Source: a virus
DNA length: 41,571 nt
Direction: 5' to 3' (one strand)
Virus record (IMG/VR): IMGVR_UViG_3300033979_000546
Coordinates: 1-41,571 of that record
Shown here piece after piece: positions 6,659 through 28,204 of this stretch. Each line of letters opens with the position of its first letter. Within the stretch, counting starts at the first letter, position 1. The notes beneath the pieces are model-generated. The model had not been told where the DNA came from. It saw only the letters and a program-made list of their open reading frames with translations, and searched no databases. The position numbers and the translations under genes were made by a program.

Positions 6659-7747
6659 TCAAGTGGCGGCGTTGTCGACCTTCATCGCCGTCCACGGGAT
6701 GCCGTAGGAGACCTCACCGCGCCACCGGGCGGCCATGAGGAACTCCTCGTGCAGGATCACGTGCGAATCGGCGTTCATGCCGCCACGCTCGCCGAGGTTG
6801 GTCAGGATCTCGACGGAGGACAGGTTGCGGAGGTCCTCCATCGTGATGTTGAACGGCGAGCCGGTGCTCTGGAACTGCGAGAGCGAGTCCTGCATCTCGG
6901 CGTCGGTCCGCATGCGGAACCGGCTGTACACGAGGGGCCGGTTGACATGGCCGACGTTCATGAGATACCAGTCCGCGGCTTCCGCACCAGAGACCGGCAG
7001 GTAGTTGGACGAGTACACCCCGCCGACGAAACCCTCGTAGACGTTGTCCGTCTGCTTGATGAACTTGGCCGAAAGGGCCAACTTCATCGTGCTGTAAAGG
7101 AGGGGCGAGCAGACGACGACGAGGTCCTCGGGGCGAATCTTCTGGTAGAACGGCTCACCCTGATCGTCCTTCCACGCGAGCATCTGGACGAGGGCCCGGT
7201 CGAGGTCGATGATCAACTTCTCAGCAGTGTCGGCCCGAACAGTGGTCGAAGTCCACGAATTGGTGGCAGTCTGACCAGTGATCAGGTTCGACTGGGCGGA
7301 CTGAGTGCCGAGGACGTGGTCGGTGGCGAAGAAGTTCGAACCGGTGATGCACTTCGAGGACGAACCGTTCCGGAGTCGGGTCATAGCCAACTTGTCCGGG
7401 AAGTTCACGACGCGACCGGCCATCGAGTGGAGCAGGGTCCGGCTCTGGCCAGTCTGGTCGAAGTCCACGAGGCTCCGCTTGAGCCGAATCAGGCTCTTGT
7501 AGAGTTTGTTCGTGAAGTCGAACGTGTACTCGTTCAACTCGCTGAACGGGACTTCCATCTCGTCCGTGATCTGCTGAACCTGCGGCACCGTACCGAGGGT
7601 CGCGAAGAACTCCTTCTCGGAGTACGTGTCGACGGTCTCGGTGAAGAGCGGGTACAGCACGTCACGCGACTGCGTGATGAAGGACTTCGCGAAGAGGCCG
7701 CGAACTTCCTTACGAGTGATCTGCCGGTTGCGGGTCAGGATGGGCAT
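6659..7747 (-). CDS. Major capsid protein, Mu gpT-like
   Basis: This 362-residue protein begins MPILTRNRQITRKEVRGLF and contains segments typical of the Mu gpT major head subunit family, such as QQITDEMEVPFSELNEYTF near residue 60, LVVVCSPLLYSTMKLALSAK near 215, and EILTNLGERGGMNADSHVIL near 325. Its length suits an HK97-fold capsid subunit. Upstream lie a small decoration-like protein and the protease/scaffold, and downstream the gp36-like connector, which is standard Mu-type head order. Several copies should assemble on the scaffold and mature after protease action. Confidence 0.88.
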   Translation of the reverse strand: MPILTRNRQITRKEVRGLFAKSFITQSRDVLYPLFTETVDTYSEKEFFATLGTVPQVQQITDEMEVPFSELNEYTFDFTNKLYKSLIRLKRSLVDFDQTGQSRTLLHSMAGRVVNFPDKLAMTRLRNGSSSKCITGSNFFATDHVLGTQSAQSNLITGQTATNSWTSTTVRADTAEKLIIDLDRALVQMLAWKDDQGEPFYQKIRPEDLVVVCSPLLYSTMKLALSAKFIKQTDNVYEGFVGGVYSSNYLPVSGAEAADWYLMNVGHVNRPLVYSRFRMRTDAEMQDSLSQFQSTGSPFNITMEDLRNLSSVEILTNLGERGGMNADSHVILHEEFLMAARWRGEVSYGIPWTAMKVDNAAT

Positions 7748-8218: not shown

Positions 8219-9541
8219 TCAGCCGCTGAGGACGTCGGAGAGGTCGAGGATGGTGCGGTCGAGGCCGAGACGCTGGACCTGATCGGTGTTATCAGCGACG
8301 TAGCGTTCGTTTTCGCTACCGGCACGACCGGGACGCTCGATGTAGTCACTGATGCCGTGACGAGCGGTCATCTCGACCTTGGGCGAACGCTTGAGGACGT
8401 CCTCGACGTAGTCGCGGACTTCCTCCGAACGCATGGTCATCATGCGGTTGACGTGGCGATCGATCTGGTCGCGGTCGCCGATCGCGTACCCGAGCGAGGC
8501 GATCTCCCGGCACTTGGCCGTGAGCATCATCCGCTTAGCGGCCTGAGCCTCGCGGGCGTTGTGCCGCTGGAGTTCGGCAAGACTGCCGCGGAGTTCGTCG
8601 ATCTGCGAACGGAGAGCAGAGTTCTCCTGCTCGTACCGCGAGACCGGGGAGGGATTCGAGTTCTTCGTGGTGGTCTTGCTCACGCCTTGTTCCTCGGTGC
8701 TGAAGTCGACGCTTTCGGCGTCAGTCGGAGGAGTGAACCGGTCGCTGCCGTGGTCCGCTCCCTTGTTCGTGTGTTCCATCTCATACCGGAGCCGCTTGCG
8801 GGTCTGGCGGTAAGTGGTCGTCCCGTCACCCTTCTTCTCGGGGTCCGAACCTTCCTCCTCAGCACCACCGTCGGTCGGGTCGGTGTCCATCCCACTGGGG
8901 GAAGCCATCCCGCCCCCGCCCTCCATGGTATCCATGCCGGAAGAAGCCATGTCGTTCTGGGTCGCGTTCGCCTGACCCTCTGCGAGGATCTGCGCCACGA
9001 GCGGAGCGATCTGCTGCGCCAGCGTCTGGGGGTCCATCATGTCGTCACAGTCCTCGGTGTAAACGTAACGGGCGATCTCCGCTCCGTTCTGCTTGAAACG
9101 CATGACGGGAAGCGAGAAGTGCGGGTACCGTCCTCCGAGCAGGCTCACGTTGGTGAGACGATGCTTTGAGGGGATCACTTCTGCAGACCGATACGGAAAG
9201 TCACCACGTTTGATTTGGTCCCATGCGTGACGGCTGATGTTGACGAAGTCAGCGTACAGGACCTTGCCGATGCGACGGAGGTTGTCGACGAAACCGACGC
9301 GGGGAGGCTCGGGGGCGTCCGGCGACTCCGGGGTGTGCCCGATCGTGACGCTCGGAAGCATCGCGTATCTGGCGTTGCCGTTGGCGGCTTCGATCGAGTC
9401 GAGTTTCTGGTGGAGGAAGTCAGCGACGCAGCGGTCCAACCAGACCTCGTCACAAACATACTTGCGGTCGTGGTGGGCCTTGAAGACCGGGACGTTGAGG
9501 ACGTCGACGGAACCGTCTTTGTTCTCTTGCACGTCAAACAT
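8219..9541 (-). CDS. Prohead protease / scaffold, Mu gpI-like
   Basis: The 440-residue protein has two parts. Residues 1-175 look like the protease half (NVPVFKAHHDRKY, MLPSVTIGHTPESPDAP, VGFVDNLRRIGKVLYADFV, FPYRSAEVIPSKH), close to the pattern of Mu gpI-type prohead proteases. Residues 180-285 are acidic, Gly/Met-rich and disordered. Residues about 300-365 form a coiled coil (YEQENSALRSQIDELRGSLA), the expected scaffold part. Such proteins organise the procapsid and are then cut. The His in GHT and the Ser in YRSAE are candidate catalytic residues, not proven. Its ATG overlaps the upstream stop by eight bases. Confidence 0.78.
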   Translation of the reverse strand: MFDVQENKDGSVDVLNVPVFKAHHDRKYVCDEVWLDRCVADFLHQKLDSIEAANGNARYAMLPSVTIGHTPESPDAPEPPRVGFVDNLRRIGKVLYADFVNISRHAWDQIKRGDFPYRSAEVIPSKHRLTNVSLLGGRYPHFSLPVMRFKQNGAEIARYVYTEDCDDMMDPQTLAQQIAPLVAQILAEGQANATQNDMASSGMDTMEGGGGMASPSGMDTDPTDGGAEEEGSDPEKKGDGTTTYRQTRKRLRYEMEHTNKGADHGSDRFTPPTDAESVDFSTEEQGVSKTTTKNSNPSPVSRYEQENSALRSQIDELRGSLAELQRHNAREAQAAKRMMLTAKCREIASLGYAIGDRDQIDRHVNRMMTMRSEEVRDYVEDVLKRSPKVEMTARHGISDYIERPGRAGSENERYVADNTDQVQRLGLDRTILDLSDVLSG

Positions 9542-9864: not shown

Positions 9865-10206
9865 TCATACGTAAATCACGTATCGAACGGTCGTGGTGCC
9901 CGTGGCGGTGCGGGCCACCCACACCTTGTTGGGGTTGACGTTGTGCAGGTAAATCGACCCACCGAGATCGAGTTGAATTGTGTTGGTGTAGTCCGCGTCC
10001 GCCGGGGCGTCGTCTTGATGAGCCACAGCCAAAGCGGCGGCAGAACCATCTTCAAACACCAGAAAGGCACCGCACGACAAGCCGGATTCGACGCTGGCCA
10101 AGTTCACGAACTTCCCAACGTTGGTCAGGCTGAACGAGCCGAACGACTTCACCCTCTGGGAGGATGAACGCCCGACGCCGACGACGTAGCCGGTACCCGC
10201 AGGCAT
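9865..10206 (-). CDS. Small virion protein, tandem paralogue
   Basis: This 113-residue beta-rich protein begins MPAGTGYVVGVGRSSSQRVK and is clearly related to its downstream neighbour, so the two arose by tandem duplication followed by strong divergence. The ATG at 10206 overlaps the upstream stop (TGATG). Conserved blocks are the N-terminal YVVG.G.SSSQRVK, the central FxSG/DSAPADD-like segment and the C-terminal RYxxYV. It may be a capsid decoration or head fibre subunit, and the pair may form hetero-oligomers. This is inference from position among head genes. Confidence 0.75.
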   Translation of the reverse strand: MPAGTGYVVGVGRSSSQRVKSFGSFSLTNVGKFVNLASVESGLSCGAFLVFEDGSAAALAVAHQDDAPADADYTNTIQLDLGGSIYLHNVNPNKVWVARTATGTTTVRYVIYV

Positions 10207-10478
10207 CAGGACTTCTTGAATCGCTTCTCGACGCCCTCGCGAACGAGCGACGGCTCACGTCCGGATTGGAGAGCACCGGCCATCATAGCGGCCTTGGATA
10301 AGTTTTCACCACTCAACTTGGCGACGTTGGCCTTGCCTTCTTCGCTGCCCGCGACCTGCTCGGTGAGGAACCTGCGGCGGCGTTCGTCCGGGGTTGCATA
10401 CCCGAGACGACGGTCGAGTCCGTCGAGTTCAGAATAAAAGTCTTGGTCGTCGTTCTTCATAAGGAATCCGCCCATCAT
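10206..10478 (-). CDS. Small protein with the FYxxLDxxDR motif
   Basis: This 90-residue protein starts at ATG 10478 (ATGA overlap with the upstream stop; a more upstream ATG at 10493 is possible). It carries DQDFYSELDGLDRRLGY near residues 11-28, the same motif found in the proteins at 23488-24810 and 25424-25978. The remainder is helical and charged (LTEQVAGSEEGKANVAKLSG). It sits between a 337-residue unknown and the decoration pair. The shared motif suggests a common binding partner in the virion or procapsid; no function is known. Confidence 0.65.
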   Translation of the reverse strand: MMGGFLMKNDDQDFYSELDGLDRRLGYATPDERRRRFLTEQVAGSEEGKANVAKLSGENLSKAAMMAGALQSGREPSLVREGVEKRFKKS

Positions 10479-11488
10479 TTCCTCGAGAGCCATGAGGCTC
10501 GGTAGTCTTCGGTCTTCTTCTTGACGCCCTTACCCTTGCCGGTCATTTCCGCAAGCATCACGTCCCGCGGAAACTCCGGCTCGCGGTCCTCGATCGAAGC
10601 GACCGCGGCGGGGCCTTGTTCGGAGTGGCGGCTGACGGACTTGAGGGCGTCGAGGCGAGCCTGACTCACGACGTGCTTCCACGCCTCCTTCAGGGGGTCG
10701 TCCCGTTCGAAAGACCGGTCGAGGTCCTCGAGAGCGTCGTCGTGCAAACGTTCGATCACCGTCTTGTCAACCCCGTAGTGCCCGTCGCTGACGGCGTCGA
10801 GGACGCGGAGGGACCGCTGAAGGGCACCCTCGAGGACGCCGATCCGGGTCAGACCACCGATAGACCGGTCCTGCGTGTGCTTGTCGCGATCGTACATACT
10901 CCACGCGACCGCGTAGGGGTTCTCGACGTCCTTCTTTCCCTTGAGACGCTTGACCACGTTCTCCATGCCGGGAGGGGCCACGTACCGGTTGATCTGGAAG
11001 GACCGGGTGGAGTACGCGACCCGCTCGAGTTCCCGGAACTTAGCCGTGGACGTGGGGTCGACCCTCTGCTGGGTCTTGCCCTGAGCACGCTTGCCGGAAG
11101 CACGACGGCTCTGGGCTTCCTTATCACTCTGGGTGAAGAAGAAGTCGGACACGACGTCGTCGTCGTCCTCACGAGGACTCTCACCGTAAGCGTGCCGATC
11201 CGTGCGGGGCATGGGCCGATTGAGCATCTTGTCGCTGCCCATTTCCTCGAGCGGACCGAGGTCCTGATCAGCGAGGGAGTCGAGCAGGTCGTCGTCGGTC
11301 CCGGCCTTTACCGCCGATCCGAAGGCCTGACCGATGGTCTGGCCTTCCACCGGCTTGTCGACGCCGATCTTCTTTGCGGCCTTGCCCTTGGCCTGCTCCA
11401 CGAGGTGTTCCGCCCACTGGTTGACGGTCTGGCTGACCGACATCGGCTTTCCGCCCTGAACGGGGATCTTGCTTGGCATGTCTGGCAC
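10475..11488 (-). CDS. Head-region protein of unknown function
   Basis: The 337-residue product starts at GTG 11488, preceded by AAGGAG with good spacing, rather than at an internal ATG. The N-terminal part is helical (VSQTVNQWAEHLVEQAKG). Residues 95-110 are acidic (REDDDDVVSDFF). Around 165-190 it has MENVVKRLKGKKDVENPYAVAWSMYD, an NP-x-AVAW motif common in phage head-region proteins. The C-terminal 130 residues are helical and charged. It lies between the MuF block and the decoration genes. It could be an internal head protein; no enzymatic motif is visible. Confidence 0.65.
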   Translation of the reverse strand: MPDMPSKIPVQGGKPMSVSQTVNQWAEHLVEQAKGKAAKKIGVDKPVEGQTIGQAFGSAVKAGTDDDLLDSLADQDLGPLEEMGSDKMLNRPMPRTDRHAYGESPREDDDDVVSDFFFTQSDKEAQSRRASGKRAQGKTQQRVDPTSTAKFRELERVAYSTRSFQINRYVAPPGMENVVKRLKGKKDVENPYAVAWSMYDRDKHTQDRSIGGLTRIGVLEGALQRSLRVLDAVSDGHYGVDKTVIERLHDDALEDLDRSFERDDPLKEAWKHVVSQARLDALKSVSRHSEQGPAAVASIEDREPEFPRDVMLAEMTGKGKGVKKKTEDYRASWLSRK

Positions 11489-11577: not shown

Positions 11578-11967
11578 TCACTTGAAAGTGATGCCGAGGA
11601 AACGCGCGAACGAGACTGCGACGCCGTTGTCCTTCTCACCGAGGGCCTCCCTCGCGGCGTACAGGGCACCGCTCAACATCACCCGCTGAACGTGACTCAG
11701 GTTGTCCCACTCGACGCGGTTGGCCTTGATCTTGTTGATCCGCTCAACCAGCATCTCGAGGTTCTCCTTGACGGTCTTCTCGCCACGATCGATCACAGTC
11801 CCGATCGGGACCTCGAAGGCGGCGGCGAGTTCCGCGTCGGCTTCCGACGGAACGTCCTTCTTGGTCTTGGCGGTCTTGCGGGGGGCGGGGGCCTCGACGG
11901 CGACAGCCGTCTCCCCGGTGAGGCGGGAACGGCTTCCGTCGATCGGTTCCAACGTGGTCTTGCTCAT
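11578..11967 (-). CDS. Head-region protein, unknown
   Basis: This 129-residue protein begins MSKTTLEPIDGSRSRLTGET; its ATG at 11967 overlaps the MuF stop (ATGA). Residues 25-45 are Ala/Pro/Lys-rich and probably disordered. Residues 55-129 are helical (TVKENLEMLVERINKIKANR, VQRVMLSGALYAAREALGE). It is translationally coupled to MuF, suggesting a role with the portal or head vertex, but no family was recognised. Confidence 0.6.
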   Translation of the reverse strand: MSKTTLEPIDGSRSRLTGETAVAVEAPAPRKTAKTKKDVPSEADAELAAAFEVPIGTVIDRGEKTVKENLEMLVERINKIKANRVEWDNLSHVQRVMLSGALYAAREALGEKDNGVAVSFARFLGITFK

Positions 11968-12854
11968 ATCAGGTCCATCATGGCGTTGCCTCGGAATCCC
12001 TCGTCGGGGAACGTACGCATTTCCCCGTCGGCTTCCACGGCACCGCCACCTTCCGCCGCTGCTACGACCGTCCTTTGGAAGTCGTTCGCATAAATGCGAG
12101 TTTGTATAGGGTTCCCGTCCTTGCTGATCAGGCCGAACTTGATGGCGTCTGCCTTCCGGACCGGGCGGATCTTGCACCGGCAGTTGTACCCATTGGGAAC
12201 CCAGATCAACTTCCAGATCGGATCGTCCTTGGACGCCACGAACCCATTCATCGCCTTGTGCAGCGGGCGGGACCGGTGGTCTCCCTGCGACAGGTACCGG
12301 TACCCGAAGAACAGGTCCGCGACGTCCGGGTCGTTGTACTGCTTCCACCGACCGGCACCCGCCGCACTGGCGGCGTTGGTGCGGAACACGGTCTCAATGT
12401 GGGCGGCAGTCGTCTCTGCGTCCTTGATCACTTCCTGAGTGAACCAGTCGCGACCGTGGCCTTCGACCCGGGCTTGGATCAACTTCTTCCGAATCCGCTC
12501 GAGTATCCTGCCGCTCATCACCCCGGAGACGTACCAAGCGGTCTGGCGGAGTTGCTCGGAGAGACCCTTGGGGCTGAGCACCCTCAGCACCGGGTTCTTC
12601 TTGGCGAGGGCGGAGACCGCCTCGGAGAACACCGGTCCGACGAGATCTACGTGCCGGTCCACCGACAGGACGGCGTCCTCATCCTTGGCCGTACTCAGAC
12701 CTGCCATGAAGGAAGCCATGAGGACCTGTACCATGCGTTCCTGCATGGCCTCGAGGTCGGGTTCCTTGTCGTGCCATAGGAGTTGAGCCCACTTCTGGTA
12801 CTCGGAAACGGTCTCCTCGACAGCCGGGTTGATGATCGAGTCCACACCTCTCAT
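11964..12854 (-). CDS. MuF-like head morphogenesis protein
   Basis: The C-terminal half shows the Mu gpF family pattern: ETVFRTNAASAAGAGRWKQY, then a GYRYLSQGDHRSRPLHKAMNG-type segment, then WVPNGYNCRCKIRPV with the paired cysteines. These proteins bind near the portal and are needed for head assembly. I place the start at ATG 12854 (MRGVDSIINPAVEE), giving 296 residues. An in-frame GTG at 12968 would add 38 residues (MRWYRTRPGAKWWLSTLL...) but runs across the repeated element at 12870-12916. No strong ribosome binding site marks either start. Unlike most Mu-type phages, about 8.9 kb separate this gene from the portal gene. Confidence 0.82.
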   Translation of the reverse strand: MRGVDSIINPAVEETVSEYQKWAQLLWHDKEPDLEAMQERMVQVLMASFMAGLSTAKDEDAVLSVDRHVDLVGPVFSEAVSALAKKNPVLRVLSPKGLSEQLRQTAWYVSGVMSGRILERIRKKLIQARVEGHGRDWFTQEVIKDAETTAAHIETVFRTNAASAAGAGRWKQYNDPDVADLFFGYRYLSQGDHRSRPLHKAMNGFVASKDDPIWKLIWVPNGYNCRCKIRPVRKADAIKFGLISKDGNPIQTRIYANDFQRTVVAAAEGGGAVEADGEMRTFPDEGFRGNAMMDLI

Positions 12855-12869
12855 ACGTGGAGTCTGACG

Positions 12870-12916
12870 AGTCTTGACCTCGTCCGAAATAGGGGTGTCT
12901 CCCCTCGCGGAGTAGA
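12870..12916 (+). promoter_or_regulatory. Leader element, copy B (repeat with hairpin)
   Basis: A 25-base block at 12870-12894 (containing CTCGTCCGAAATAGGG) matches the minus strand at 39575-39599 with one difference. It runs into a hairpin, AGGGG-TGTCT-CCCCT (12891-12905), followed by AGTAGA. The other copy has a hairpin at the same place with a different stem sequence and loop. In this orientation the element lies upstream of the plus-strand gene cluster. The rest of 12855-13061 holds a GNRA-type hairpin (13021-13036) and a weak promoter candidate. Confidence 0.7.
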
Positions 12917-13020
12917 GTAAAGTGGAGAGCCACCACTTCGCTCCGGGGCGGGTCCGGTACCACCTCACACCTCCACCGGACTCGCCCCGTTTCTCGAGCA
13001 CTCCTTTCGCATGCGGCGTC

Positions 13021-13036
13021 GACCCGGAAACGGGTC
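13021..13036 (+). other. Small hairpin with GAAA loop
   Basis: GACCCG-GAAA-CGGGTC is a perfect 6-bp stem with a GNRA-type loop, 25 bases before the start codon of the plus-strand cluster. It may be part of its leader, as in the other element copy where a hairpin also precedes the first gene. Confidence 0.5.
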
Positions 13037-13050
13037 GGTGCCGTTTTAGG

Positions 13051-13056
13051 TATGAT
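13051..13056 (+). promoter_or_regulatory. Possible -10 box before the plus-strand cluster
   Basis: TATGAT lies only five bases before ATG 13062. No convincing -35 box was found 17 bases upstream. If it is used, transcription would begin at or near the start codon and give a leaderless mRNA. This is weak evidence; the real promoter may be in the element at 12870-12916. Confidence 0.3.
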
Positions 13057-13061
13057 GGACG

Positions 13062-13844
13062 ATGAGTAACCACCGGATCTGTTGCGATTGCCTTTCCGGT
13101 TGCGGGTCTTGCACCCAAAACCTCACCATGACGTGGCATGGTTCCGTCGAGTTCTTGGCCACTTGTTGTCCGTTCCCTAATCCCGGGTACCCAGATCCCT
13201 GCCAGAATGCCACGATCGGCTCTTGCGAGACTGAACCTTACAACTCGGACCCTAACTACAGTCCGTGCGCACCTTGGGAGTGGCCTTATGGTAACGCGTA
13301 CGGTTGCAGTTACTTCAAGATAGACGAAGTCTTAGGACCACTTACGTTCCAACTCGTTCAAGTGGCCACTTCGACCACCGGGGTTCCGTTTTGCCGTTGG
13401 GAAGGTGAGTTGAATCTCACTTACGACATAGAGAGGTGTTGCTGGTCGGAAACTCAATGCGGGCCGGGTACTTCACAATTCATCTCGCCCATAAGCCTTT
13501 TGGTGCGGGCGGAAGTGATTCGTAACAACCTCGTGGGGAGTTTAGATGGTTGGCTCGTTCGGATCACCGTCACATCGAATTGGTTGTTCTACGGGGGAGG
13601 TTCGGCGGTCATAGAGTTGAGGCCAAACCCTGCTCAACTTGATCCCAATTCGTGTCCAGACTTCACCGAGACCTTTGATTACGTCATCCGCAATGACTGG
13701 GCAACGTTTCAAGAGATCCCCTATGGGCCGATGGTGCCCAACTCGGACCCGTGCAATGCTGGTAACATATTCACGTTCTCAGCCTTTTCCATTGGTTTTC
13801 CTCCGGTCTTCGCGTATGATGCGGGGTATGCGACCTTCTCATGA
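13062..13844 (+). CDS. Cysteine-rich protein of unknown function
   Basis: This 260-residue protein begins MSNHRICCDCLSGCGSCTQN and has a dense N-terminal Cys cluster (paired CC, CxxC and CxxxC motifs), with further Cys pairs at CCPF and RCCWSETQCG. The rest looks beta-rich with many aromatic residues (NWLFYGGGSAVIELRP). Repeated Cys pairs suggest disulfides or metal binding, as in an exported or virion protein. Its codon use is visibly more A/T-rich than that of neighbouring genes, and it lies on the opposite strand to the late operon, features of a recently acquired cargo gene. No family was recognised. Confidence 0.75.
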   Translation: MSNHRICCDCLSGCGSCTQNLTMTWHGSVEFLATCCPFPNPGYPDPCQNATIGSCETEPYNSDPNYSPCAPWEWPYGNAYGCSYFKIDEVLGPLTFQLVQVATSTTGVPFCRWEGELNLTYDIERCCWSETQCGPGTSQFISPISLLVRAEVIRNNLVGSLDGWLVRITVTSNWLFYGGGSAVIELRPNPAQLDPNSCPDFTETFDYVIRNDWATFQEIPYGPMVPNSDPCNAGNIFTFSAFSIGFPPVFAYDAGYATFS

Positions 13845-14476: not shown

Positions 14477-14509
14477 TCTGGTGAGCCTTCACGCGACCGG
14501 AATGGTGGC

Positions 14510-14728: not shown

Positions 14729-14754
14729 CCGCTCAACCCGCTCTCCTTGTGAAG

Positions 14755-14788: not shown

Positions 14789-14790
14789 TA

Positions 14791-15123: not shown

Positions 15124-15127
15124 GCGT

Positions 15128-15621: not shown

Positions 15622-15785
15622 CGTTGTCTCTCGAGATTGGTAAGCCGTTCGTGGAACGACGTGCTGCGTTCATCGAGTCGGGCAAGGTGCGAGTCGATCT
15701 TGGACAGTTTGAACCACAAGAATGAAGAAGCCGCGAAGATGCTTCCGATCGTGGTCATGATGACGGACAGCGTGTCAACACTCAT
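15618..15785 (-). CDS. Small membrane protein with coiled coil (XhlA-like)
   Basis: This 55-residue protein starts at ATG 15785 (ATGA overlap with the upstream gene). It has one N-terminal membrane segment (SVIMTTIGSIFAASSFLWF) and a C-terminal coiled coil (LSKIDSHLARLDERSTSFHE...). This layout is like haemolysin XhlA or antiholin-type proteins of phage lysis cassettes. The stop overlaps the holin start. Confidence 0.68.
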   Translation of the reverse strand: MSVDTLSVIMTTIGSIFAASSFLWFKLSKIDSHLARLDERSTSFHERLTNLERQR

Positions 15786-16893: not shown

Positions 16894-18932
16894 CAAGCAC
16901 CTCCAGTCACTGGGGCCCTGCGGAGTTCAACCGCAATCACTTCCGCATCACCAGTCAAGTTGTCGCCCGTGTTCACGTCCGTGTTGGAAGAGTCCCGGTA
17001 GACCTTCAGTCGAAACGCATTTCCAGCCGCAAGACTGTCGATCTTGTTGTAGGGGATGTTGACGGTGGTGACCGAAGCGATGCCCGAGGAAGTGCTCGCG
17101 GCGGTCCGGGTTTCCATGTCCCCTTCGCTGTCAAAGGAGTCGGACGCGATATCCGTGGCGATGATCTTCTGGAACGTCGCCCCCCACCGGGCATATGTCG
17201 TGGTTCCGGGGGTGGTGGTGGGAACCCAGTGGATGATCACCTCAAAAGAGGTTCCGCTGGCGGGGTTCGTGAACCCCTGGGGGATGATCCCGACGAAGAT
17301 GGCGGCCTCATTGGTCGCCCCGTCGTCGAAGTCCAGCACCGCGATGCTGTTGCGGGTGTCGAGCGTGGCGTAGTTGGAGGCCGGAGGCTGGTTGTCTAGG
17401 GGAGTCCACACGGCGTAGGTTGCCGTTCCCTGGTAGGGGGCAGCCCATTCGAGATCCGTCCCCCCCGCGTTGACGGTCAGCACCTGACCGGCGGTGCCAC
17501 GGGCAAGACGAACCGCAGTGTCGGCGGCTGACCCCACGGCAAGATCACCGGCAGCATCCCAGATCGTGTCGGTCGCCACGCTGCCGGAACCGCCGGAAGC
17601 AGCAGCCCACTTCAGCCCGGTCGCCGTCGAGGAATCGACGGTAAGAACGTGGTTGTTGGTGGTTCCAACAGCAAGTGCAACGCTTTCGGTTCCATTGTGG
17701 ACAACAAGATCGCCCTTGCTTCCGGTGGGTGCCAAGGCATCAAACGCAGCGGTGGCGGTAGTCTGTCCGGTTCCGCCCTTATTGATCGGGACAGTAGACT
17801 CCGTAGCGACGGTACCCAAGCCAAGACTAGTACGGGCATCACTCGGCGACTCGTTCTTCCACAGGCTGGTTGCACTCTCATAGACGAGAAAGTGATTGTT
17901 GGCCAAGGTGTCGGTGTCGATCAGGACATCGTGAAGTTCGCCGAGTTCCGAGTAGTTGATGACCTTGACGTAGACCCGACCTGCAGAGCCGTTACTGGCG
18001 TTGACCACCCATCCCAAGAAGACCCCGTGGGCGGGCTGGGGGGGTCGGGTAGTGGTGAGTCCACCGGTAGTCGTACTCAGCCACAAGGCCGCACCGTTGG
18101 CGAACGAACCAGTCGGTACATTGGACAGCCCGGTTAGTTCACCGGCTATCATCATGTACCCGTCGTTGGTCGTGATCGAGGTGGCGGCAATGCCGATGGT
18201 GCCGGTAGAGGTGGCCTCGGCGGATGCATCAGCAAGTTCGACCTGAAGATGGGTACCGACTGATCCGGTGATTCGAACGACTTCGCCCTTGTTGATCGTA
18301 CCGCCAGACGCCTTGCGGACGGCATGCATGATGGCCTCGTTCACGTTGGACGAGTACGTTCCGGTCGTGACCGTAACGCCCGCAAGCGAGCCGCCGGTGA
18401 TGGCCACGTTATTGGCCGCCTGCGTGGCGATGGTGCCGAGACCCAAGGTGGTCCGCTGGGCCGCGGCGTCGGCGTCGTCGAGAAGGGCCCGGCCCGCCGC
18501 AGTGCAAGTGATTTCTTCAACGTCACCGGAACTGGGGGTGGCCCGACCAAGCAACTTGTCGGTGGCGATGTTCTGCATCTTGGCGAACGTCACCGCATCG
18601 TTGGCGATGGTCGTCGTGTTGCCGTTGGCCGAGGCGGTCACGTCGCCGGTCAGGGCGGCACGCTCGAACGCAACTTGGCCGCCGGTGGCCCAGTTGGCAG
18701 TGACCGATGTCGAGTCGGTGACGACACGCTCGGCGGTAAGGGTGCCGTTGGCGGTCTTCACCAGATAGTCGGCGTTGGTCGGGGCACCGCCACCGGTGAT
18801 CAGCACGCCACCAGCGGTCGATCCGTCACCGACGTAGAGTTTCTTGTCGTCGGTGGTGTACAGGGGCTCGCCGACCACCGGGGTGATCGCGGTCCGTTCG
18901 GCTTCGGTTCCACGCCTAAGTTGTAGGGGCAT
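16893..18932 (-). CDS. Tail fibre
   Basis: The 679-residue protein begins MPLQLRRGTEAERTAITPVV followed by GEPLYTTDDKKLYVGDG, the N-terminal fibre domain seen in many tail fibres (major tropism determinant type). The middle repeats short units typical of fibrous trimers (RTTLGLGTIATQAANN, RTSLGLGTVATESTVPINKG, GTGQTTATAAFDALAP). The C-terminal 180 residues form a separate beta-rich domain. With the adjoining lectin-like protein it probably determines host range. The ATG overlaps the upstream gene by 17 bases. Confidence 0.85.
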   Translation of the reverse strand: MPLQLRRGTEAERTAITPVVGEPLYTTDDKKLYVGDGSTAGGVLITGGGAPTNADYLVKTANGTLTAERVVTDSTSVTANWATGGQVAFERAALTGDVTASANGNTTTIANDAVTFAKMQNIATDKLLGRATPSSGDVEEITCTAAGRALLDDADAAAQRTTLGLGTIATQAANNVAITGGSLAGVTVTTGTYSSNVNEAIMHAVRKASGGTINKGEVVRITGSVGTHLQVELADASAEATSTGTIGIAATSITTNDGYMMIAGELTGLSNVPTGSFANGAALWLSTTTGGLTTTRPPQPAHGVFLGWVVNASNGSAGRVYVKVINYSELGELHDVLIDTDTLANNHFLVYESATSLWKNESPSDARTSLGLGTVATESTVPINKGGTGQTTATAAFDALAPTGSKGDLVVHNGTESVALAVGTTNNHVLTVDSSTATGLKWAAASGGSGSVATDTIWDAAGDLAVGSAADTAVRLARGTAGQVLTVNAGGTDLEWAAPYQGTATYAVWTPLDNQPPASNYATLDTRNSIAVLDFDDGATNEAAIFVGIIPQGFTNPASGTSFEVIIHWVPTTTPGTTTYARWGATFQKIIATDIASDSFDSEGDMETRTAASTSSGIASVTTVNIPYNKIDSLAAGNAFRLKVYRDSSNTDVNTGDNLTGDAEVIAVELRRAPVTGGA

Positions 18933-20619: not shown

Positions 20620-21774
20620 TCACGCGGAGTAACCGCCGTGCTCGACGGCTGAAGGACCGTTGTAACCGTACTCGGACAGGCTGTCGCCGGACGTGTGCAA
20701 GTGTTTGGCTCGAGTCGTGGCACTGATCACGTGAAAGTCGTCTCTACCGTCGGCGTGGTTGTTAGCGTAGTTTTCCGAGATCGTCACCCAATCACCCGGG
20801 TTGATGACGTTCACGTGCTTCGGGACGGCCCGGTAGATCGTCACCGCGGCGTCCGGCTTCCCCCTCGTCCTCTTGATGTGAAAGGTGGACTCCACGTCGT
20901 AACTGGTGGCCGGTCGCGAGTCGTGGTAGAAGTGCGGGTGCGTGTAGACGTCGTCCGGGTAGATTTGAGTCAAGTCGTGCAGAGGAGCACCATGCTCTGG
21001 GCCCGGAGGGCGATGTGAACCACCGTAGTCGTCGGTGTACACCTCCGACCAGTACCTCTCGAAGTCTTCGAACGTGCAGTGCCGGACGATCTTCGGGTCG
21101 TAGACCTTCGTGGCCTTGCGTGTGTTAGCGGTGGCCCCGGTGATCCTCGTGGCGGTGGCGACGTGGTCGGGAAAGTGCCTCTTCAGCACGTTCGCCATCT
21201 CACGGATCGAACCGGGGGCGGCTGGTTTGGTCTTCACGTCAATTTCGTACTCGCCCATCCCGTTGGTGTCACTGTCGGGGAGGTCGTCGGCGTCGTAAGG
21301 CTTGAAAGACGACACAGATAGTTCAAACGTTGGTTTGAAACTCGAATGCTTCACGCTCGCATTCCACTGGGTGACGGCGTGGTGAGGTTCGTCGGGGACG
21401 TGGTAGAACCTAGCACCGCTCTGATGGAATGCTGCACCCACGACGGTCGAGTTTCCGCCTTTCTTCCTGAATGCCGGATAAGCCAAAGGCAGGCTGTCTG
21501 GCGTGAAGGAACCAACTTGATGGTGCGGAATGATGCGGTCGATCTTGCCAAAGTCGGACAAATGACCGGCGTCCACCCAACCAACGTGCTCATAATCTGG
21601 GCCGAAAGCCTTTATATGGTCACCAACCATGTGCGAAGAGTTGCGGGCGTCGTGAGTCAGACTACCCGGCGGACGGCCCAAGTAACGCTCGATTTCGGAC
21701 GCGGTGAACCTCGACATGTCAAAGCCGGGGTGGTTCCAGAGTGGAGTTGGATGAGTGTCAGGACTGTAATTCAC
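20620..21774 (-). CDS. Head-associated protein with ADP-ribosyltransferase-like C-terminus
   Basis: This 384-residue protein starts at GTG 21774, overlapping the portal stop (GTGA). The C-terminal 85 residues carry AAVTIYRAVPKHVNVINPGD, then WVTISENYANNHA, and finally SLSEYGYNG. This order (Arg, then a Ser/Thr strand, then a Glu-containing motif) is characteristic of phage-borne ADP-ribosyltransferase-like domains that follow portal genes. The first 270 residues have no clear family. If active, the enzyme might be injected with the DNA and modify host proteins. Catalysis has not been shown; the domain call rests on motif order. Confidence 0.65.
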   Translation of the reverse strand: MNYSPDTHPTPLWNHPGFDMSRFTASEIERYLGRPPGSLTHDARNSSHMVGDHIKAFGPDYEHVGWVDAGHLSDFGKIDRIIPHHQVGSFTPDSLPLAYPAFRKKGGNSTVVGAAFHQSGARFYHVPDEPHHAVTQWNASVKHSSFKPTFELSVSSFKPYDADDLPDSDTNGMGEYEIDVKTKPAAPGSIREMANVLKRHFPDHVATATRITGATANTRKATKVYDPKIVRHCTFEDFERYWSEVYTDDYGGSHRPPGPEHGAPLHDLTQIYPDDVYTHPHFYHDSRPATSYDVESTFHIKRTRGKPDAAVTIYRAVPKHVNVINPGDWVTISENYANNHADGRDDFHVISATTRAKHLHTSGDSLSEYGYNGPSAVEHGGYSA

Positions 21775-23477
21775 TTGAGCCCCGCGAGGGCCTTCACGAC
21801 CCGGTCAAGGTCTCCGTTCGGGATCATGACGTCGTGGCTGTGCCCGTCGGACGGCTGACACCGGAACTTGCGGACCTCGTGGTAGTGGCCGTCGGGGCCC
21901 TTGTCGGTCTCGCCGTTCCCGGTCGAGTCAAGCGTCGCCACGTGCCGGTGGGGGTCGCCCATGCCGCCGGTCGAGAGGGAATAACGCTGCTTACCGCGAA
22001 GGTGGTTCGAACTGGCCCGGTACACCACGTCACGCATCTTCTCGATCCCCTCGGGGCTCGAGAGGTCGACGTAAGACATCGGGGAACCCTCGCCGTTGCT
22101 TTGTTCCGGGCTCCCGTCTTGACCCATCATCATGGCCTGCGGAACCGCGAGGAGCGTCTCCCCGGGCTTGGCAGTACGGAAGCCGGTCTTCTCGGTGATC
22201 ATTTCAGCCGTTACGTCGAACCCGAGCGACTGAAGCAACTGATACGCCTCGAGGATCTGGAGCGAACCCGGGTTTGTCTCGTCGATCGGCATGTCGAACT
22301 TCGGGAAGAGTTCGGGCGGGATCTTGTTGAGGGCACCGATCACCGGCACCAGTTCGGTGTTGATCGTCTCGATGAGGCCTACGCGGTCGAACTCGGTGAT
22401 CCGCCCGAACGTCGTCCGCTCGTGCACTTCGCCGAGACTCTGACTGCCGACGTCGCCCTGATCGATGATCAAGGTCGAACCGAGGATCGCCTTCGACAGT
22501 TGGCGGTCCATGTACTCGATGAAAGACAGGTAAGTCTCGGCGGGTGCCCGCGTCGCTTCCTTGACCTCGAGGTCCCACTCCTCACCGGACGGATACGCGA
22601 GTTCCTCATCCTCTTGGTAAGCCTCGAGCAACTCGAGGGCGACCGAACGGGCGTCGGGGTTCTTGTACGGATAACGGGCGACGAGCACGCCCGAAGACAA
22701 TCGTTGCAACCACCGTGTGTACAGGTTGAGGACGACGGTCTTGAAGTAGTAGTTTGGGTAGATCGAGTCCTCGAGGCCCTGACCCCAGTAAATCCGGCCC
22801 TCGTCTTGCGGGTTCCGATACGAGCCGCCGCTCGGGTTGTAGACGTGCTTGACGAATTGCCACGGGTGCACAAGGTCGCCGTAGAATACGTTGTGCCGCG
22901 TGAGCAGGGCGAGTTGGCCCGTCTTCGAGAACACGAAGCGGTCCTTGTAACACGGGTACATCCGCCCGATCCCGAGCGTGTAGTCGTCCTCGTTCAACTT
23001 CCAGAGGACTTCCTGAATCGTGATCCCGTCGAGGATCGCGTCCAGCATGTTGTTGAGCGCTTCGGTCTCGCGGTACTGTTGCTTCCAGAGCCTCGAGAAC
23101 CGCTCGGCGACCAACTTGGCCCCGGGTGTGCTGTTTGCCGGAACGAACTCCCGGCGAAGTTGAATCGTCGCCAACTTGCGGACGTTCAAGCACCCGAGGA
23201 TCTGGAGATCCTGTCGCATCCGGTTGGCGACGTCGGGATCGCGAAGCCGCGCCCGGCTCGGATCGTTCACGAGGTCGATGAAGTTCGCGAACAGCGTGTC
23301 GAAGTGGGCAGACCGGTGCCCGACGGCGAAAGGCCGCTGGGGGCGCACGACCATTTGCATGCCTTCGTACGGGGTCGGCGTCTCGAGCCGGTACTTCTCG
23401 GCCCTCGCCTCCCTCGCGGCACCGCGAGACTGGGAAGCCATGATCGGTGCGTTGAATCGGTCCATGATCTCGCTCAT
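21771..23477 (-). CDS. Portal protein, Mu gp29 / DUF935-like
   Basis: This 568-residue protein starts at ATG 23477, with GAGGA eight bases upstream. It contains DUF935-type portal motifs, notably SKAILGSTLIIDQGDVGSQS followed by LGEVHERTTF near residue 350, a 'wing/stem' pattern (ITIQEVLWKLNEDDYTLGIG) and PELFPKFDMPIDETNP. The C-terminus is His/Gly-rich (GDPHRHVATLDSTGNG, DGHYHEV, DGHSHDV), perhaps a metal-binding tail. Twelve copies should form the DNA-packaging vertex. It is followed by the ADP-ribosyltransferase-like gene. Confidence 0.88.
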   Translation of the reverse strand: MSEIMDRFNAPIMASQSRGAAREARAEKYRLETPTPYEGMQMVVRPQRPFAVGHRSAHFDTLFANFIDLVNDPSRARLRDPDVANRMRQDLQILGCLNVRKLATIQLRREFVPANSTPGAKLVAERFSRLWKQQYRETEALNNMLDAILDGITIQEVLWKLNEDDYTLGIGRMYPCYKDRFVFSKTGQLALLTRHNVFYGDLVHPWQFVKHVYNPSGGSYRNPQDEGRIYWGQGLEDSIYPNYYFKTVVLNLYTRWLQRLSSGVLVARYPYKNPDARSVALELLEAYQEDEELAYPSGEEWDLEVKEATRAPAETYLSFIEYMDRQLSKAILGSTLIIDQGDVGSQSLGEVHERTTFGRITEFDRVGLIETINTELVPVIGALNKIPPELFPKFDMPIDETNPGSLQILEAYQLLQSLGFDVTAEMITEKTGFRTAKPGETLLAVPQAMMMGQDGSPEQSNGEGSPMSYVDLSSPEGIEKMRDVVYRASSNHLRGKQRYSLSTGGMGDPHRHVATLDSTGNGETDKGPDGHYHEVRKFRCQPSDGHSHDVMIPNGDLDRVVKALAGLK

Positions 23478-23487
23478 TACATTGTCC

Positions 23488-24810
23488 TCAAGGAACCGCA
23501 CTGGACCGTTTGCCATACTCGGTGGTCGCAGTGTGCGACGTGTTACCGGGCTCCAAGAGGTGCCATTTCAGGTCCTCCCGGAGCGACTTCTTTACATCCG
23601 CGTTGTTGACGAGCGACTTATCTACCGGTAACAAGCCCTTGGTCATCAAGTTGATCGACTCGGGGTTGGTGCCTCTCGGACCCATCTTTTCCTGCGTCAT
23701 CTCGTTGGCTTGGTCTCTGGTGACGAACTTACCTTCGTGAGTCATGAAACCATCACCCCAATCGTCCCACGCCTCCGGAATCCAATCACCGGCGGCTTCT
23801 GCAGCGTCACGAGCAGCACCGTGCCACGTACCCTCGTAAATCTTGCCGTCCTTGGTGCGGATGATCGCCGCAGAGCGGAACATGCCGTCCGAGTAACGGT
23901 CCAACTCGCCTAAGACTCCGAAGAACTCATCGTCGGAATATTTAATGCCCTTCCGCTCGAGGTGTTCCTTCAACTTCTTCTTGAAACGATCGCCTAAGCG
24001 ACCCGATTCCGCAACGGATTCGTCCAAGGGCAAGTGACCTTTGACCATCAAAGTCGTCGACTCCGGATAAGTCTGAGACAATTTATTGGCCTGATCACGA
24101 TTGACAAACTCGCCACCTTGAGTCACGAATCCGTCTTCGTACTCCGCCGGGTTATGCCACGGATCGTCACCATGGCCCGCGTCACTGGCAACTTGCCTCG
24201 CCGCCTCATGCCAAGTGCCCTCAAACACTTGACCGGTCTTCGTGTGCTTGATCGCCGCGGACCGGAACATTGAGTCGACGTGACGGTCTACCTCGTCGAG
24301 GTAGTCGTAGAAGTGACGGTCGGGGTCATCGATCCAAGGCCCGAAGGATTCCTCCCGGGCGATCCTTTCCCCTCGCTTCCGCGCCTCGGCCCTCTCGTCC
24401 ATCTCCACCAGTCTCTTCTGCGCTCCCTTAAGCCCGGGGTGCGAATCGATGGCACTTTCCAGATTAGCCTTCGCCCCGGGCGTCAGCATTCCGGCGTTCG
24501 CGAGTGAGAGAGTCTCCCCCCGCGTGTAGTCGCGCTCGGGCTTGGCCTCCCTCACCTCGGCGGTGGCGCGGTCCCGGTCGTGAAACTCCCCGCCCTCCGT
24601 CATGAAGCCGTCGTCCCACATGAACGGATTGTGGGCGTCAGGATGTCCGGCCTGAGCGGCGGCGTCGTGGGCCATGACGTGCATAGGACCCTCGAACACC
24701 TGACCGGTGTTCTTGTGATAGATGGCTGCGGACCGGTAAGCGTGCCGGTCTACGACGTCGAGGCCAAGGTAGAAGTCCACGTCGTCGGACATCGTTTGGA
24801 ACTCTTTCAC
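23488..24810 (-). CDS. Protein with three copies of a short module
   Basis: This 440-residue protein repeats one module at residues about 12-85, 165-245 and 294-371. Each copy has FYxxLDxxDRH, then FRSAAIxxxKTGQVFEGxxH, an Ala-rich helix, then a DGFxTxGGEFxxRDxA ending. The linkers also repeat (TLMVKGHLPLDESV and NLMTKGLLPVDKSL). The start GTG 24810 overlaps the upstream stop (GTGA); an ATG at 24792 is possible. It sits between the terminase and portal genes. No enzyme motif is visible; a repeated binding module is likely. Confidence 0.72.
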   Translation of the reverse strand: MKEFQTMSDDVDFYLGLDVVDRHAYRSAAIYHKNTGQVFEGPMHVMAHDAAAQAGHPDAHNPFMWDDGFMTEGGEFHDRDRATAEVREAKPERDYTRGETLSLANAGMLTPGAKANLESAIDSHPGLKGAQKRLVEMDERAEARKRGERIAREESFGPWIDDPDRHFYDYLDEVDRHVDSMFRSAAIKHTKTGQVFEGTWHEAARQVASDAGHGDDPWHNPAEYEDGFVTQGGEFVNRDQANKLSQTYPESTTLMVKGHLPLDESVAESGRLGDRFKKKLKEHLERKGIKYSDDEFFGVLGELDRYSDGMFRSAAIIRTKDGKIYEGTWHGAARDAAEAAGDWIPEAWDDWGDGFMTHEGKFVTRDQANEMTQEKMGPRGTNPESINLMTKGLLPVDKSLVNNADVKKSLREDLKWHLLEPGNTSHTATTEYGKRSSAVP

Positions 24811-25427
24811 GCCATGTCGGGAGCGGTTCTGGCGTAATGATTGACCCAGACGTCCGAGACGCCACCTTCCGTCATTTTCTTAGCGGCTTCATGGATCGCC
24901 TCGGGGACGGAAAGATGGGGTGCACCCTTGTGCACCTCCGCGGCAGCGTCGGCAAGGGTCCGGGTGTAGTCCCCGTGGAAATACTTACCTTGAGTCAAGT
25001 GGTAGTATGCGGCGAGCGCGGGGTGGGTGTTTTCACCAGTCGACAAAGCCGTCCACGACGGGTGCTTCTGAGAAGTCGACGCGTACCGTTGGGCCTTGAT
25101 CCGCTCGAGGTCGGCCCGGTACCGGGAACCGGCGGACTCGGGCACCGACGAGAACGCATTCACGAACCCAGCCGCCTCCCCGCCGATCTTCCGGATCACG
25201 TTCGACGGGTCTGGAACCGGACCCATCTTGGACGGACCGGCACCGGCGGCAGTCTCGCCCGCGGCCTTGGTCGCCTGACCGGTCGCAGAGGGAGCGGCAG
25301 CCCCGCCGGTCGCAGCACCACCGGCGGAACCCCCGGCGGCACCAACAGCACCACCGGCAGCACCTGAACCGCCCGCTGCGGCGACAGCGGGGAGAACGTA
25401 CTTGAAGTAGTAATGACCGAGGTTCAT
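24807..25427 (-). CDS. Ala/Gly-rich protein, unknown
   Basis: The 206-residue product begins MNLGHYYFKYVLPAVAAAGG and has a low-complexity Gly/Ala stretch over residues 17-60. Then follows a charged helical part (YRADLERIKAQRYASTSQKH) and an Ala/His-rich end (LADAAAEVHKGAPHLSVPEA). The ATG overlaps the upstream stop (ATGA) and a GGGGG tract precedes it. The flexible segment suggests a linker between an N-terminal anchor and a C-terminal helical domain. Function unknown. Confidence 0.62.
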   Translation of the reverse strand: MNLGHYYFKYVLPAVAAAGGSGAAGGAVGAAGGSAGGAATGGAAAPSATGQATKAAGETAAGAGPSKMGPVPDPSNVIRKIGGEAAGFVNAFSSVPESAGSRYRADLERIKAQRYASTSQKHPSWTALSTGENTHPALAAYYHLTQGKYFHGDYTRTLADAAAEVHKGAPHLSVPEAIHEAAKKMTEGGVSDVWVNHYARTAPDMA

Positions 25428-25978
25428 TGCACCCCCTTCATGAAGTGCGCGTGAGCCTTGGACGCGAATGCGACCAATGGGTTTTTCTTCTGAGTCCATC
25501 CCGAGGCACGTCCGAAGACAGGACTCTTGTGGCTTCGAGCGTTGCGGTACCAGTTCAGATCAGCGTCGTCAGGGATGCCAAATCCGTCCTCGCGGTCCGA
25601 AGCGTAGACGGGGACGATGGGGCCGTCTGTGGAATCCCCAACCGCCACGACGTCGTGGCCGTCTTTGTGGGAGGTCCCCTTTGGGTGGATGGGGCCGACC
25701 TTGTTTGGAGACCACACCACAGTGTGGCGATCCTGACTCGATTTGTCGATGGCGTGTGCGGCGAAGTACCCCGTGCCTTCATGTTGGTAAACCGGAACGG
25801 TCCCCTTGCCCGGGGAAGAGGACAACTGCCGGGGCGGTCGAGCCGGGTTGCCATCTTGGGAACCGTGCACGAAACCCTCCGAAACGTGTCCGACCAGACG
25901 CATTCCCCCCTTGCCACCGGCATGCCGATCGATCAAGTCCAAACTACGGTAAAAGTATCGGTCGTCCATTGTGTTCAT
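25424..25978 (-). CDS. Protein with the FYxxLDxxDR motif, unknown
   Basis: This 184-residue protein begins MNTMDDRYFYRSLDLIDRHA; the motif is the one repeated in the 440-residue neighbour and in the small protein at 10206-10478. The centre is His/Asp/Gly-rich (VYQHEGTGYFAAHAIDKSSQ, SHKDGHDVVAVGDS). The end is a short helix (NPLVAFASKAHAHFMKGVQ). The ATG overlaps the terminase stop (ATGA). An enzyme or a virion cargo protein are both possible; no catalytic motif is certain. Confidence 0.62.
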   Translation of the reverse strand: MNTMDDRYFYRSLDLIDRHAGGKGGMRLVGHVSEGFVHGSQDGNPARPPRQLSSSPGKGTVPVYQHEGTGYFAAHAIDKSSQDRHTVVWSPNKVGPIHPKGTSHKDGHDVVAVGDSTDGPIVPVYASDREDGFGIPDDADLNWYRNARSHKSPVFGRASGWTQKKNPLVAFASKAHAHFMKGVQ

Positions 25979-27699
25979 CCTGTGACTTCGTCCCAGAGGG
26001 ACCGCTTGGCCCTCTTCATGCGAGTAACTACGCGGCTGACGCCGAAGTCGTCTGCTGCTGGTTTCTGCATCGGCTGACCCCTAAGGATCGATTCCGGATT
26101 GGCGAAAAACCCACCGAGCGGGTCCTGACCGGCGATCCAGTCGTAGACGTGAGCATGAAACTGGTGGTCCACGGACTTGATCCAATAGTACCGACCGTCG
26201 CCGTCTTGAGCCCTTACGGGTGAAGTCAACTCGGTCACGTACCGACCGTCGAGAAGACCTCCGAAGTTCGGCGGCTCGATCACGTCTCGCCTGACGTAAG
26301 CCTGAAACACGTGGTCCATCGCCTCGGTCCGGTCGACCGTGACATACCGTTGCTCGCCGTTCGCCTCGTTCGAGTTCCACGTGAGACTCTTGACGTTCTT
26401 ACCCTCGCTCGCCTTGTACTGACACCGCCAGACCCGGAATGGGGCCCGGGCCTGAAAGTCAAGGCTGAGACGCTGCTCGGGCATGGCGTCGATGACCGCT
26501 ACCGCCACCCGGTAGTTCTTGCCCACCTCGATCGCCTCCTCGACGGTACGCAACTTGCCGCAATACACGAGTCTGCGTCGGACCCGCCCGGTATCATCCA
26601 CCACGAAGTCCGAGATCCGGACGTCGAGCGTACTTCCGACGTCGATCCCCATGGTGCAAGGACCGCGGACGGTGCCGGGAGCGGGCAGCAGGTACTGATC
26701 GACGCATTCACCGAGCAGGCGTTCGTTCAATCGGTTGCCGGTCCCGCCCTCGTAACACTCGCCGAGGTCGCTGTTGACGAACACTTGAGTGGCGAGTTCG
26801 TTGCCCACCGCCTTGCGGAAGGAGAACCAGAGTCCGTCGATGTCGTCGAGCAGGCTGTTCATCCGGCTGATGTGGTAGCCGCTGACCGGGGAAAGCGGGT
26901 CGCCGGTCGGCCTCCACCCGGTGACGTCCCGCACCCGGTCGATCATCGCCCCGCACTTGAGGCAACACGCCTCGACCTTGTCGTTGACCTTCAGCCTCGG
27001 CTCGTAGTCGGAGATCACCGAGCCCGAATATACCGGACGGGCTACGTTCTGCCACCAGTCGAGCGGTTGAAGGAGGCCGCACTCGTGGCACCGGTAGTGC
27101 ATCTTCTTGGCGTCGGAATGCTGGAACTCCCAATCGAGGTTGTGCCTGCTCTCGTTGCCTGCTAGCGTCGGGTTGCCGAGGACCGTCCGGAACCGATACG
27201 GGGACCCCTTGGTCCGGTCCATCGCGAAGGCAACGCCGGTGGGCTCGCACTGGTCGAACTCGTCCACGTAGACCACGTCGGCGGGGAACTCCTTGAACTC
27301 GACCATCGCGTGGGACGCACCGAAGCGGATCGTGCCGCGACCGAGGTGCTTCAGCAGCACCGAGTCCGCCGACCCGATGCTCGTGTGCTTCATGTGCTGG
27401 TAGAGCGGCACCTGCGAGATGCACCGATCGATGCGGTTCGGGACGAAGATGTTCCGCGTGTCCTGAGTCGGGAGGACGTAGAACACGCCCAGACCGCACA
27501 GACAATCGGCGAGGGCCGAGCAGATAAAACCCTCGGTCTTGCCAGTCTGCACTGCCGACTTGATCACCTTGTACGGACTGGGGTCCGCCAAGATGTCGAG
27601 CATGTAGAAGAAGTCCTCGAACTGCATCGCCTCACCGCGGACGTTGCGGTGATGGTTCAGGGCGAGGTCGAGCGTCGTGTCACGACGGGCCAGAGCCAC
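25975..27699 (-). CDS. terL: Terminase large subunit, GpA-like
   Basis: The protein shows the phage terminase GpA family layout. The ATPase part has a Walker A-like SAVQTGKT near residue 48 and Walker B VVYVDEFDQ near 142, with LPTQDTRNIF between. Two zinc-ribbon-like Cys pairs follow (YRCHECG near 206; CCLKCG near 246). The nuclease part begins with TMGIDVGSTLDVRI. It cuts and packages DNA into the procapsid with the small subunit. I take GTG 27699 (574 residues, overlapping the upstream gene by 20 bases); an ATG at 27627 (MQFEDFFYML) would shorten the N-terminus. GpA-type terminases often make cohesive ends, but none is visible here. Confidence 0.88.
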   Translation of the reverse strand: MALARRDTTLDLALNHHRNVRGEAMQFEDFFYMLDILADPSPYKVIKSAVQTGKTEGFICSALADCLCGLGVFYVLPTQDTRNIFVPNRIDRCISQVPLYQHMKHTSIGSADSVLLKHLGRGTIRFGASHAMVEFKEFPADVVYVDEFDQCEPTGVAFAMDRTKGSPYRFRTVLGNPTLAGNESRHNLDWEFQHSDAKKMHYRCHECGLLQPLDWWQNVARPVYSGSVISDYEPRLKVNDKVEACCLKCGAMIDRVRDVTGWRPTGDPLSPVSGYHISRMNSLLDDIDGLWFSFRKAVGNELATQVFVNSDLGECYEGGTGNRLNERLLGECVDQYLLPAPGTVRGPCTMGIDVGSTLDVRISDFVVDDTGRVRRRLVYCGKLRTVEEAIEVGKNYRVAVAVIDAMPEQRLSLDFQARAPFRVWRCQYKASEGKNVKSLTWNSNEANGEQRYVTVDRTEAMDHVFQAYVRRDVIEPPNFGGLLDGRYVTELTSPVRAQDGDGRYYWIKSVDHQFHAHVYDWIAGQDPLGGFFANPESILRGQPMQKPAADDFGVSRVVTRMKRAKRSLWDEVTG

Positions 27700-28204
27700 C
27701 CGGGCCCGTCGCGTCGAGCGGGACTCCGAGGCGACGGAGACCGCTGTCGACGACGTCCCGGAGGCTGTCGTTGACCCGACCGATGCGGGAGCGGATCGCC
27801 GCGACGTGGATTTCGAACTGGTCGTCGCCTTCGTTCTCATCGCGAACCTCGAGGAGTTCCTTCTCCAGACGGATCAACTGCAGGAGTTCATTCACGGCCA
27901 CCTCGTCCTTACCCTCGAGGCGTTCGAGCCACGTGTCGATGGACCGGCTGACCGCCCGGGCCCGCCGGACCTTGGACGCGGCGAACTCATCGGTAAGTTG
28001 CTTCCGAGCCTGCTCGGTGACGTCCCGCCAGAAGTCGCCCCTCTTGTCGTGCCAACGCTCGCGGTGACACCTCTGGTACATCGTCGCCGGGTGCACTTGA
28101 TGTTTCTTCGCGAGTTCTTGGATGGTTATCGGACCCTCGCTCTGCACGAACTCCGAGCGAATCAGTTCCCACGGAATGTTCTTGACCAGTCCAGTCTTGT
28201 CCAT
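27680..28204 (-). CDS. Terminase small subunit-like DNA-binding protein
   Basis: This 174-residue protein begins MDKTGLVKNIPWELIRSEFV and has a helix-turn-helix like those of small terminases (GPITIQELAKKHQVHPATMY). The middle is a coiled coil (ELLQLIRLEKELLEVRDENE). It is coded immediately before the large subunit, as expected. ATG 28204 has AGGGG six bases upstream; an ATG at 28246 would add 14 residues. It should recognise the packaging site. The last 20 bases overlap the large subunit gene. Confidence 0.75.
   Translation of the reverse strand: MDKTGLVKNIPWELIRSEFVQSEGPITIQELAKKHQVHPATMYQRCHRERWHDKRGDFWRDVTEQARKQLTDEFAASKVRRARAVSRSIDTWLERLEGKDEVAVNELLQLIRLEKELLEVRDENEGDDQFEIHVAAIRSRIGRVNDSLRDVVDSGLRRLGVPLDATGPGGSGPS

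Follow-up and report, generated by a model that had tools for sequence, protein, structure and literature searches.

The window, by which we mean the whole 41.6 kb stretch of DNA analyzed, is the record of an uncultured virus of bacteria. Table 1 lists the genes of its head module together with three accessory proteins, here called A, B and C, that carry copies of a short peptide of the pattern FYxxLDxxDR, which we refer to as the tag. Clear carriers of the tag are confined to two slots of the head module, one between the terminase and portal genes, and the other between the genes for the MuF protein and the protease-like protein, which is possibly a protease–scaffold fusion.

Table 1. Positions in the window of the tag copies, their carriers and the surrounding head genes
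Feature	Position	Strand	Remarks
Terminase large subunit, GpA type	25975..27840	(-)	Context
Protein A, 184 aa	25424..25978	(-)	Accessory gene in the terminase–portal gap
Tag in A	25925..25954	(-)	FYRSLDLIDR; context MDDRYFYRSLDLIDRH
Alanine/glycine-rich protein	24807..25499	(-)	Between A and B; without tag, without family
Protein B	23488..24810	(-)	Three tag + core repeats; likely start ATG 24792, SD-like GAAAGAG
B tag 1, N-terminal	24745..24774	(-)	FYLGLDVVDR
B tag 2	24283..24312	(-)	FYDYLDEVDR
Core domain of B repeat 2 (approximate limits)	24078..24267	(-)	Predicted beta-beta-alpha-beta-beta-alpha; similar cores after tags 1 and 3
B tag 3, degenerate/weaker	23896..23925	(-)	FFGVLGELDR
Mu-type portal protein	21771..23516	(-)	Portal_Mu 7e-55; context
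Mu F-like minor head protein	11964..13139	(-)	Context
Protein C	10206..10493	(-)	Tag + predicted four-helix body; likely start ATG 10460 (MKNDDQDFYSELDGLDRR)
Tag in C	10410..10439	(-)	FYSELDGLDR
Head maturation protease-like N-terminal part with coiled-coil-like C-terminal half	8219..9541	(-)	Candidate docking partner
Mu gpT-like major capsid protein	6659..7747	(-)	Context

Between C and the protease-like gene lie two small minus-strand genes (9865–10206 and 9534–9857), the products of which look similar (SSSQRVK..., VYLHxVxPxxVWxxR) and are perhaps capsid decoration proteins. C is adjacent to this putative decoration pair and to the gene for the head protease/scaffold.

The protein after the portal (20620–21774, minus strand) matches phrog_2579 ('ParB C-terminal domain'), and its C-terminal part has what we take to be an ADP-ribosyltransferase-like look. 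It contains another recurring stretch, F(S/T)xE(D/E)(V/F)ERY(W/Y)xEVYxDDY, a version of which closes a neighbouring paralogue in the related phage G001 (L006 16908–17876 and 17873–18439). A was considered as a relative of this post-portal protein, and comparison gave no support. Another minus-strand gene (16893–18932) has a match to the Major tropism determinant N-terminal domain (Mtd_N, 3e-11) and encodes a probable tail or fibre protein; the plus-strand genes near it, from 13062 to 15969, gave no family where searched. A further minus-strand gene (33100–34116) encodes a PurZ-like succino-aminodeoxyadenylate synthase (NCBIfam PurZ 7.7e-57, 193 bits, under the 300-bit cut-off) near a nucleotide-kinase-like open reading frame and a phage DNA polymerase (32636–33109, 35097–37268), which raises the possibility of 2-aminoadenine (Z) DNA in this phage.

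Occurrence and form of the tag

The initial annotation took FYxxLDxxDR to be common to three otherwise unrelated proteins and often N-terminal, and this is borne out. Five copies were located, all on the minus strand, with one each in A and C and three in B. Judged by start-codon context the tag lies no more than ~18 residues from the start in all three proteins, and sequence comparison outside the tag finds no relationship between them. In A it occupies approximately residues 4–19. The likely start of B is the ATG given in Table 1, and therefore B too opens with the tag, its N-terminus being MSDDVDFYLGLDVVDRH; the second and third tags open two further repeats of ~130 residues. Because each tag in B belongs to a unit repeated in tandem, the three copies there are not independent occurrences. 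Limits of 10206–10478 had been proposed for C; the ORF caller gives instead the limits listed in Table 1. SD-like sequences precede the likely starts of B and C, and also that of D, a protein of a related phage described below.

In 48 curated genes (12,422 amino acids) there are four strict matches to FYxxLDxxDR. Shuffling the residues within proteins 2000 times gave 0.0005 matches on average, and no shuffle produced as many as four. A six-frame scan of the window, with a profile built from the motif copies themselves, gave at least 30 bits for all five copies and 14.6 bits for the best other open reading frame. When the copies are aligned the consensus spans ~14 residues, [DE]-x-[HD]-F-Y-D-x-L-D-E-[ILV]-[DE]-R-[HYF]. 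Over 19 copies the phenylalanine and the hydrophobic position are each conserved in all 19, and the leucine and the arginine each in 17. The conserved residues F0, L4 and I/L/V7 form a helix-like amphipathic pattern, and the hydrophobic moment is high in most copies. The tags of A and of the first repeat of B have nine residues in common, of which only five have identical codons. Such codon differences at identical tag residues are frequent; selection therefore acts on the peptide, and recent copying of the tag between genes at the DNA level is unlikely. A wider 'xDRH' signal in the MuF and protease/scaffold proteins was set aside, as the copies outside A to D are without the rest of the tag; [VIL]DRH is enriched relative to shuffling in a greedily picked gene set that includes antisense frames.

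In AlphaFold models, which are limited by shallow alignments (21 and 3 sequences), the tag is a low-confidence helix outside the folded domain. The core of the B repeat is predicted with pLDDT ~95 as two beta-beta-alpha halves, whereas the tag is at ~50; in C, with three sequences only, there is a separate tag helix at ~60 and a helical body at ~87. The differing codons, the lack of relationship among the domains that come after it, and its poorly predicted helix apart from the fold together suggest that the tag is a portable docking peptide and not part of a domain. It is attached to at least four bodies that have no other sequence in common, these being A, the B core, the helical body of C, and D.

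B of the window has a single recognizable domain type, repeated, with the core pattern RSAAIxxxxTGxxFEGxxHxxA ... DGFxTxxGxFxxRxxA. Its matches in BFVD are named 'Large polyvalent protein associated domain-containing', with weak E-values of 0.03–0.1. Pfam, PHROGs and NCBIfam gave weak partial matches only for B and no family for C or for A, including the part of A beyond the tag. Nothing significant came from tblastn against phages for any of the three proteins, nor against plasmids for A, and sequence searches of the PDB gave nothing convincing for A, C or the B repeat profile. The model of C has no match in BFVD, and the repeat core has no confident Foldseek match in the PDB, the best VIA-align Z being 3.0. 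A SEP domain in B was rejected at 14.9 bits over 19 residues against a Pfam gathering score of 27; in the B homologue of L006 the score is 27.7 bits summed over the repeats, and the best stretch covers 22 of 75 positions.

Tagged proteins in related phages

How general is the tag? Close relatives were found through terminase and portal searches. Looking for the motif in head-region proteins of related phages, a check proposed with the initial annotation, revealed it in B homologues and in a fourth protein, D. The terminase of G001 (L006) is 85% identical to that of the window, and its B homologue of ~900 residues comprises a GNAT (acetyltransferase) domain and five repeats, four of which have a clear preceding tag. 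L003 and L005 have the same GNAT and repeat architecture with different repeat orders. In all three homologues the GNAT domain comes first, and the tag is internal only, after the GNAT region. In L009 the terminase is 71% identical and the terminase–portal gap is free of tagged genes; the contig does not include the C region. C is ~56% identical in relatives, where the N-terminus keeps FYxEL...D but has serine in place of the arginine of the motif (DS versus DR).

The head module of L044, in which the capsid protein is 91% identical, was found by a degenerate DNA motif scan of viral contigs. It contains D, a carrier unrelated to the other three, which starts MSDERQFYRRLEEVDRH and sits between a gene of the 10475 family and C; its likely start is a few residues before the tag. 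A, C and D have nothing else in common with B. A paralogue, D2, and a fused version in G001 can be aligned with D tag to tag, and these have a sister tag RYRNNxxVDRH. In L136, L138, L139 and L141 a single open frame runs from the 10475-family protein through the sister tag, (M)GGSFYRYRNNNEVDRH, into the D-type domain (L139 4242–5621). In L139 a ribosome-site-like GGAG occurs just before an internal ATG of this frame. Either the unit exists both fused and separate, or it is made from an internal start. In the relatives, then, the tag is sited where domains meet, both in the B homologues and in the 10475-family/D frame. The tag has so far been found in one phage group only; a motif scan of genomes, bacterial ones included, gave 84 matches scattered over unrelated organisms, which we read as chance level.

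What the tag may do

With three of five copies falling within the repeats of B, the similarity might be put down to chance or to trivial duplication there. This is exceedingly improbable, being refuted by the shuffle expectation of 0.0005 against four strict copies and by the profile scan; moreover, the tag occurs in three separate genes of the window and in D of a relative. The main rival to targeting makes the tag a site that the phage's own head maturation protease recognizes or cuts, with B a polyprotein that is divided into units of one domain each, while an N-terminal propeptide is lost from A, C and D. A head-protease-like gene is present in the same module, in B and its homologues the tags separate the domain units, and another peptide, QFxP, is reiterated between the domains of giant polyvalent proteins; in T4 a propeptide unites targeting and cleavage (PMC5694885). 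Yet the amphipathic pattern of F0, L4 and I/L/V7 resembles that of a binding helix more than that of a short scissile motif, and we regard the protease site as rather unlikely, while noting that it may coexist with targeting.

The tag is helical in both models and is duplicated with the B repeat, as might be expected of an oligomerization or structural helix that caps the next domain or binds other tags, spread by shuffling of head-module genes and having no packaging role. However, the domains that follow it are unrelated, it ranks with the most poorly predicted parts of both models, and the core domain is found without it in many phages, all of which makes a purely structural helix unlikely. 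Short motifs directed at the host are common in viral effectors, and B resembles an effector of the polyvalent type. The tag could then act after injection, as a short linear motif on ejected effectors that binds a host protein or membrane. Against this, C, which has putative decoration and protease/scaffold genes as neighbours, does not look clearly like an effector, and the chance-level motif scan of bacterial genomes says little about a binding partner; we consider action after injection quite improbable.

The proposal in the initial annotation, a docking or sorting tag for head cargo, is partly supported and is the likeliest of these readings. The tag is portable, N-terminal or at junctions, and amphipathic, it lies outside the predicted fold and in head-module genes only, and it has a fourth carrier in D. 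The loss of the motif arginine in C of the relatives (DS) counts against it, as do the internal-only tags of L003, L005 and L006 and the restriction to a single phage group. Because the carriers are unrelated, and the amphipathic peptide is N-terminal, outside the fold and present in two head-module gaps only, a label for docking to the procapsid interior is the best reading. By analogy with known phages, we give an even chance to the tag being a capsid-targeting peptide that loads accessory head-module proteins into the procapsid. It would form the centre of a portable targeting peptide of ~14 residues, folding into an acidic amphipathic helix on binding and docking A, B, C and D to the scaffold, the portal or the inner capsid surface, the protease/scaffold-like protein being the first candidate partner. 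The tagged proteins would be co-packaged and then delivered with the DNA, in the manner of those bearing the capsid targeting sequence (CTS) of T4 or the N-terminus of DarB; conceivably the tag might also be trimmed by a protease.

More tentatively, and with somewhat less than an even prospect of being right, this one peptide could be the general cargo code of a virus group with a Mu-like head, by which any tagged accessory protein or repeat unit is loaded into the head. Protein units could then be gained, split into genes or fused while delivery is kept. Few systems are known for how phages choose the accessory proteins that travel in the head. A recognizable common peptide would allow head cargo to be predicted from sequence in this phage group, and would give phage-based protein delivery in laboratory systems a well-defined loading tag. 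It would also make it easier to understand why domains are so freely gained and lost by multi-domain accessory proteins.

Relation to known packaging systems

The core of B recurs, without the FYxxLDxxDR tag, in giant polyvalent-type proteins of at least 2000 residues in L018–L029 (e.g. L023 1071–10244, L024 3636–11411), which are uncultured phages, several of them of ~72 kb. In these giant proteins QFxP stands before successive domains, with 3 to 8 copies per protein compared with 0.6 to 1.1 in shuffles, and in five of seven proteins the count is above the largest shuffle value. QFxP was not seen as a peptide common to neighbouring proteins of these phages. The layout is like that of the FYxxLDxxDR carriers but the peptide is different, and polyvalent-type proteins in general may have reiterated peptides at their junctions.

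In the text of Iyer et al. 2017 that was searched (PMC5512222), packaging of polyvalent phage proteins is predicted, GNAT is one of the listed domains, and inter-domain tags are not described. The B homologues resemble the proteins treated there in being multi-domain accessory phage proteins with GNAT, and like B itself they have a core domain that recurs in other polyvalent proteins. Two or more disparate domains are present in the L006 homologue, whereas a single recognizable type makes up B of the window. By this likeness B would be a polyvalent-type protein and, by analogy, would probably be packaged and injected.

For one large polyvalent-type protein, DarB of P1, the N-terminal 30 residues suffice for packaging (PMC9024508), and the N-terminal tag of B is comparable. 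No consensus signal was found among the co-packaged Dar antirestriction proteins of P1 (PMC9024508); here, in contrast, there is a consensus in four unrelated proteins, and their packaging is what we infer. There is also a likeness in kind to the CTS of the T4 internal proteins and Alt, a short N-terminal peptide serving as an address label on diverse carriers, the internal proteins having only the CTS conserved (PMC3012670, PMC5694885). A, B, C and D of L044 are likewise different proteins with a short N-terminal peptide; we claim no sequence homology. Unlike the signals of T4 and DarB, which are N-terminal, the tag is also internal, before each unit of B, and in the B homologues of L003, L005 and L006 it is internal only; the head, too, is Mu-like and not that of T4. 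The window shares portal, MuF and gpT-type capsid homologues with Mu-like head modules, but differs in having tagged accessory genes in the terminase–portal and MuF–protease gaps. If the targeting reading is right, the tag would be a variant of the known capsid targeting peptides rather than a new category.
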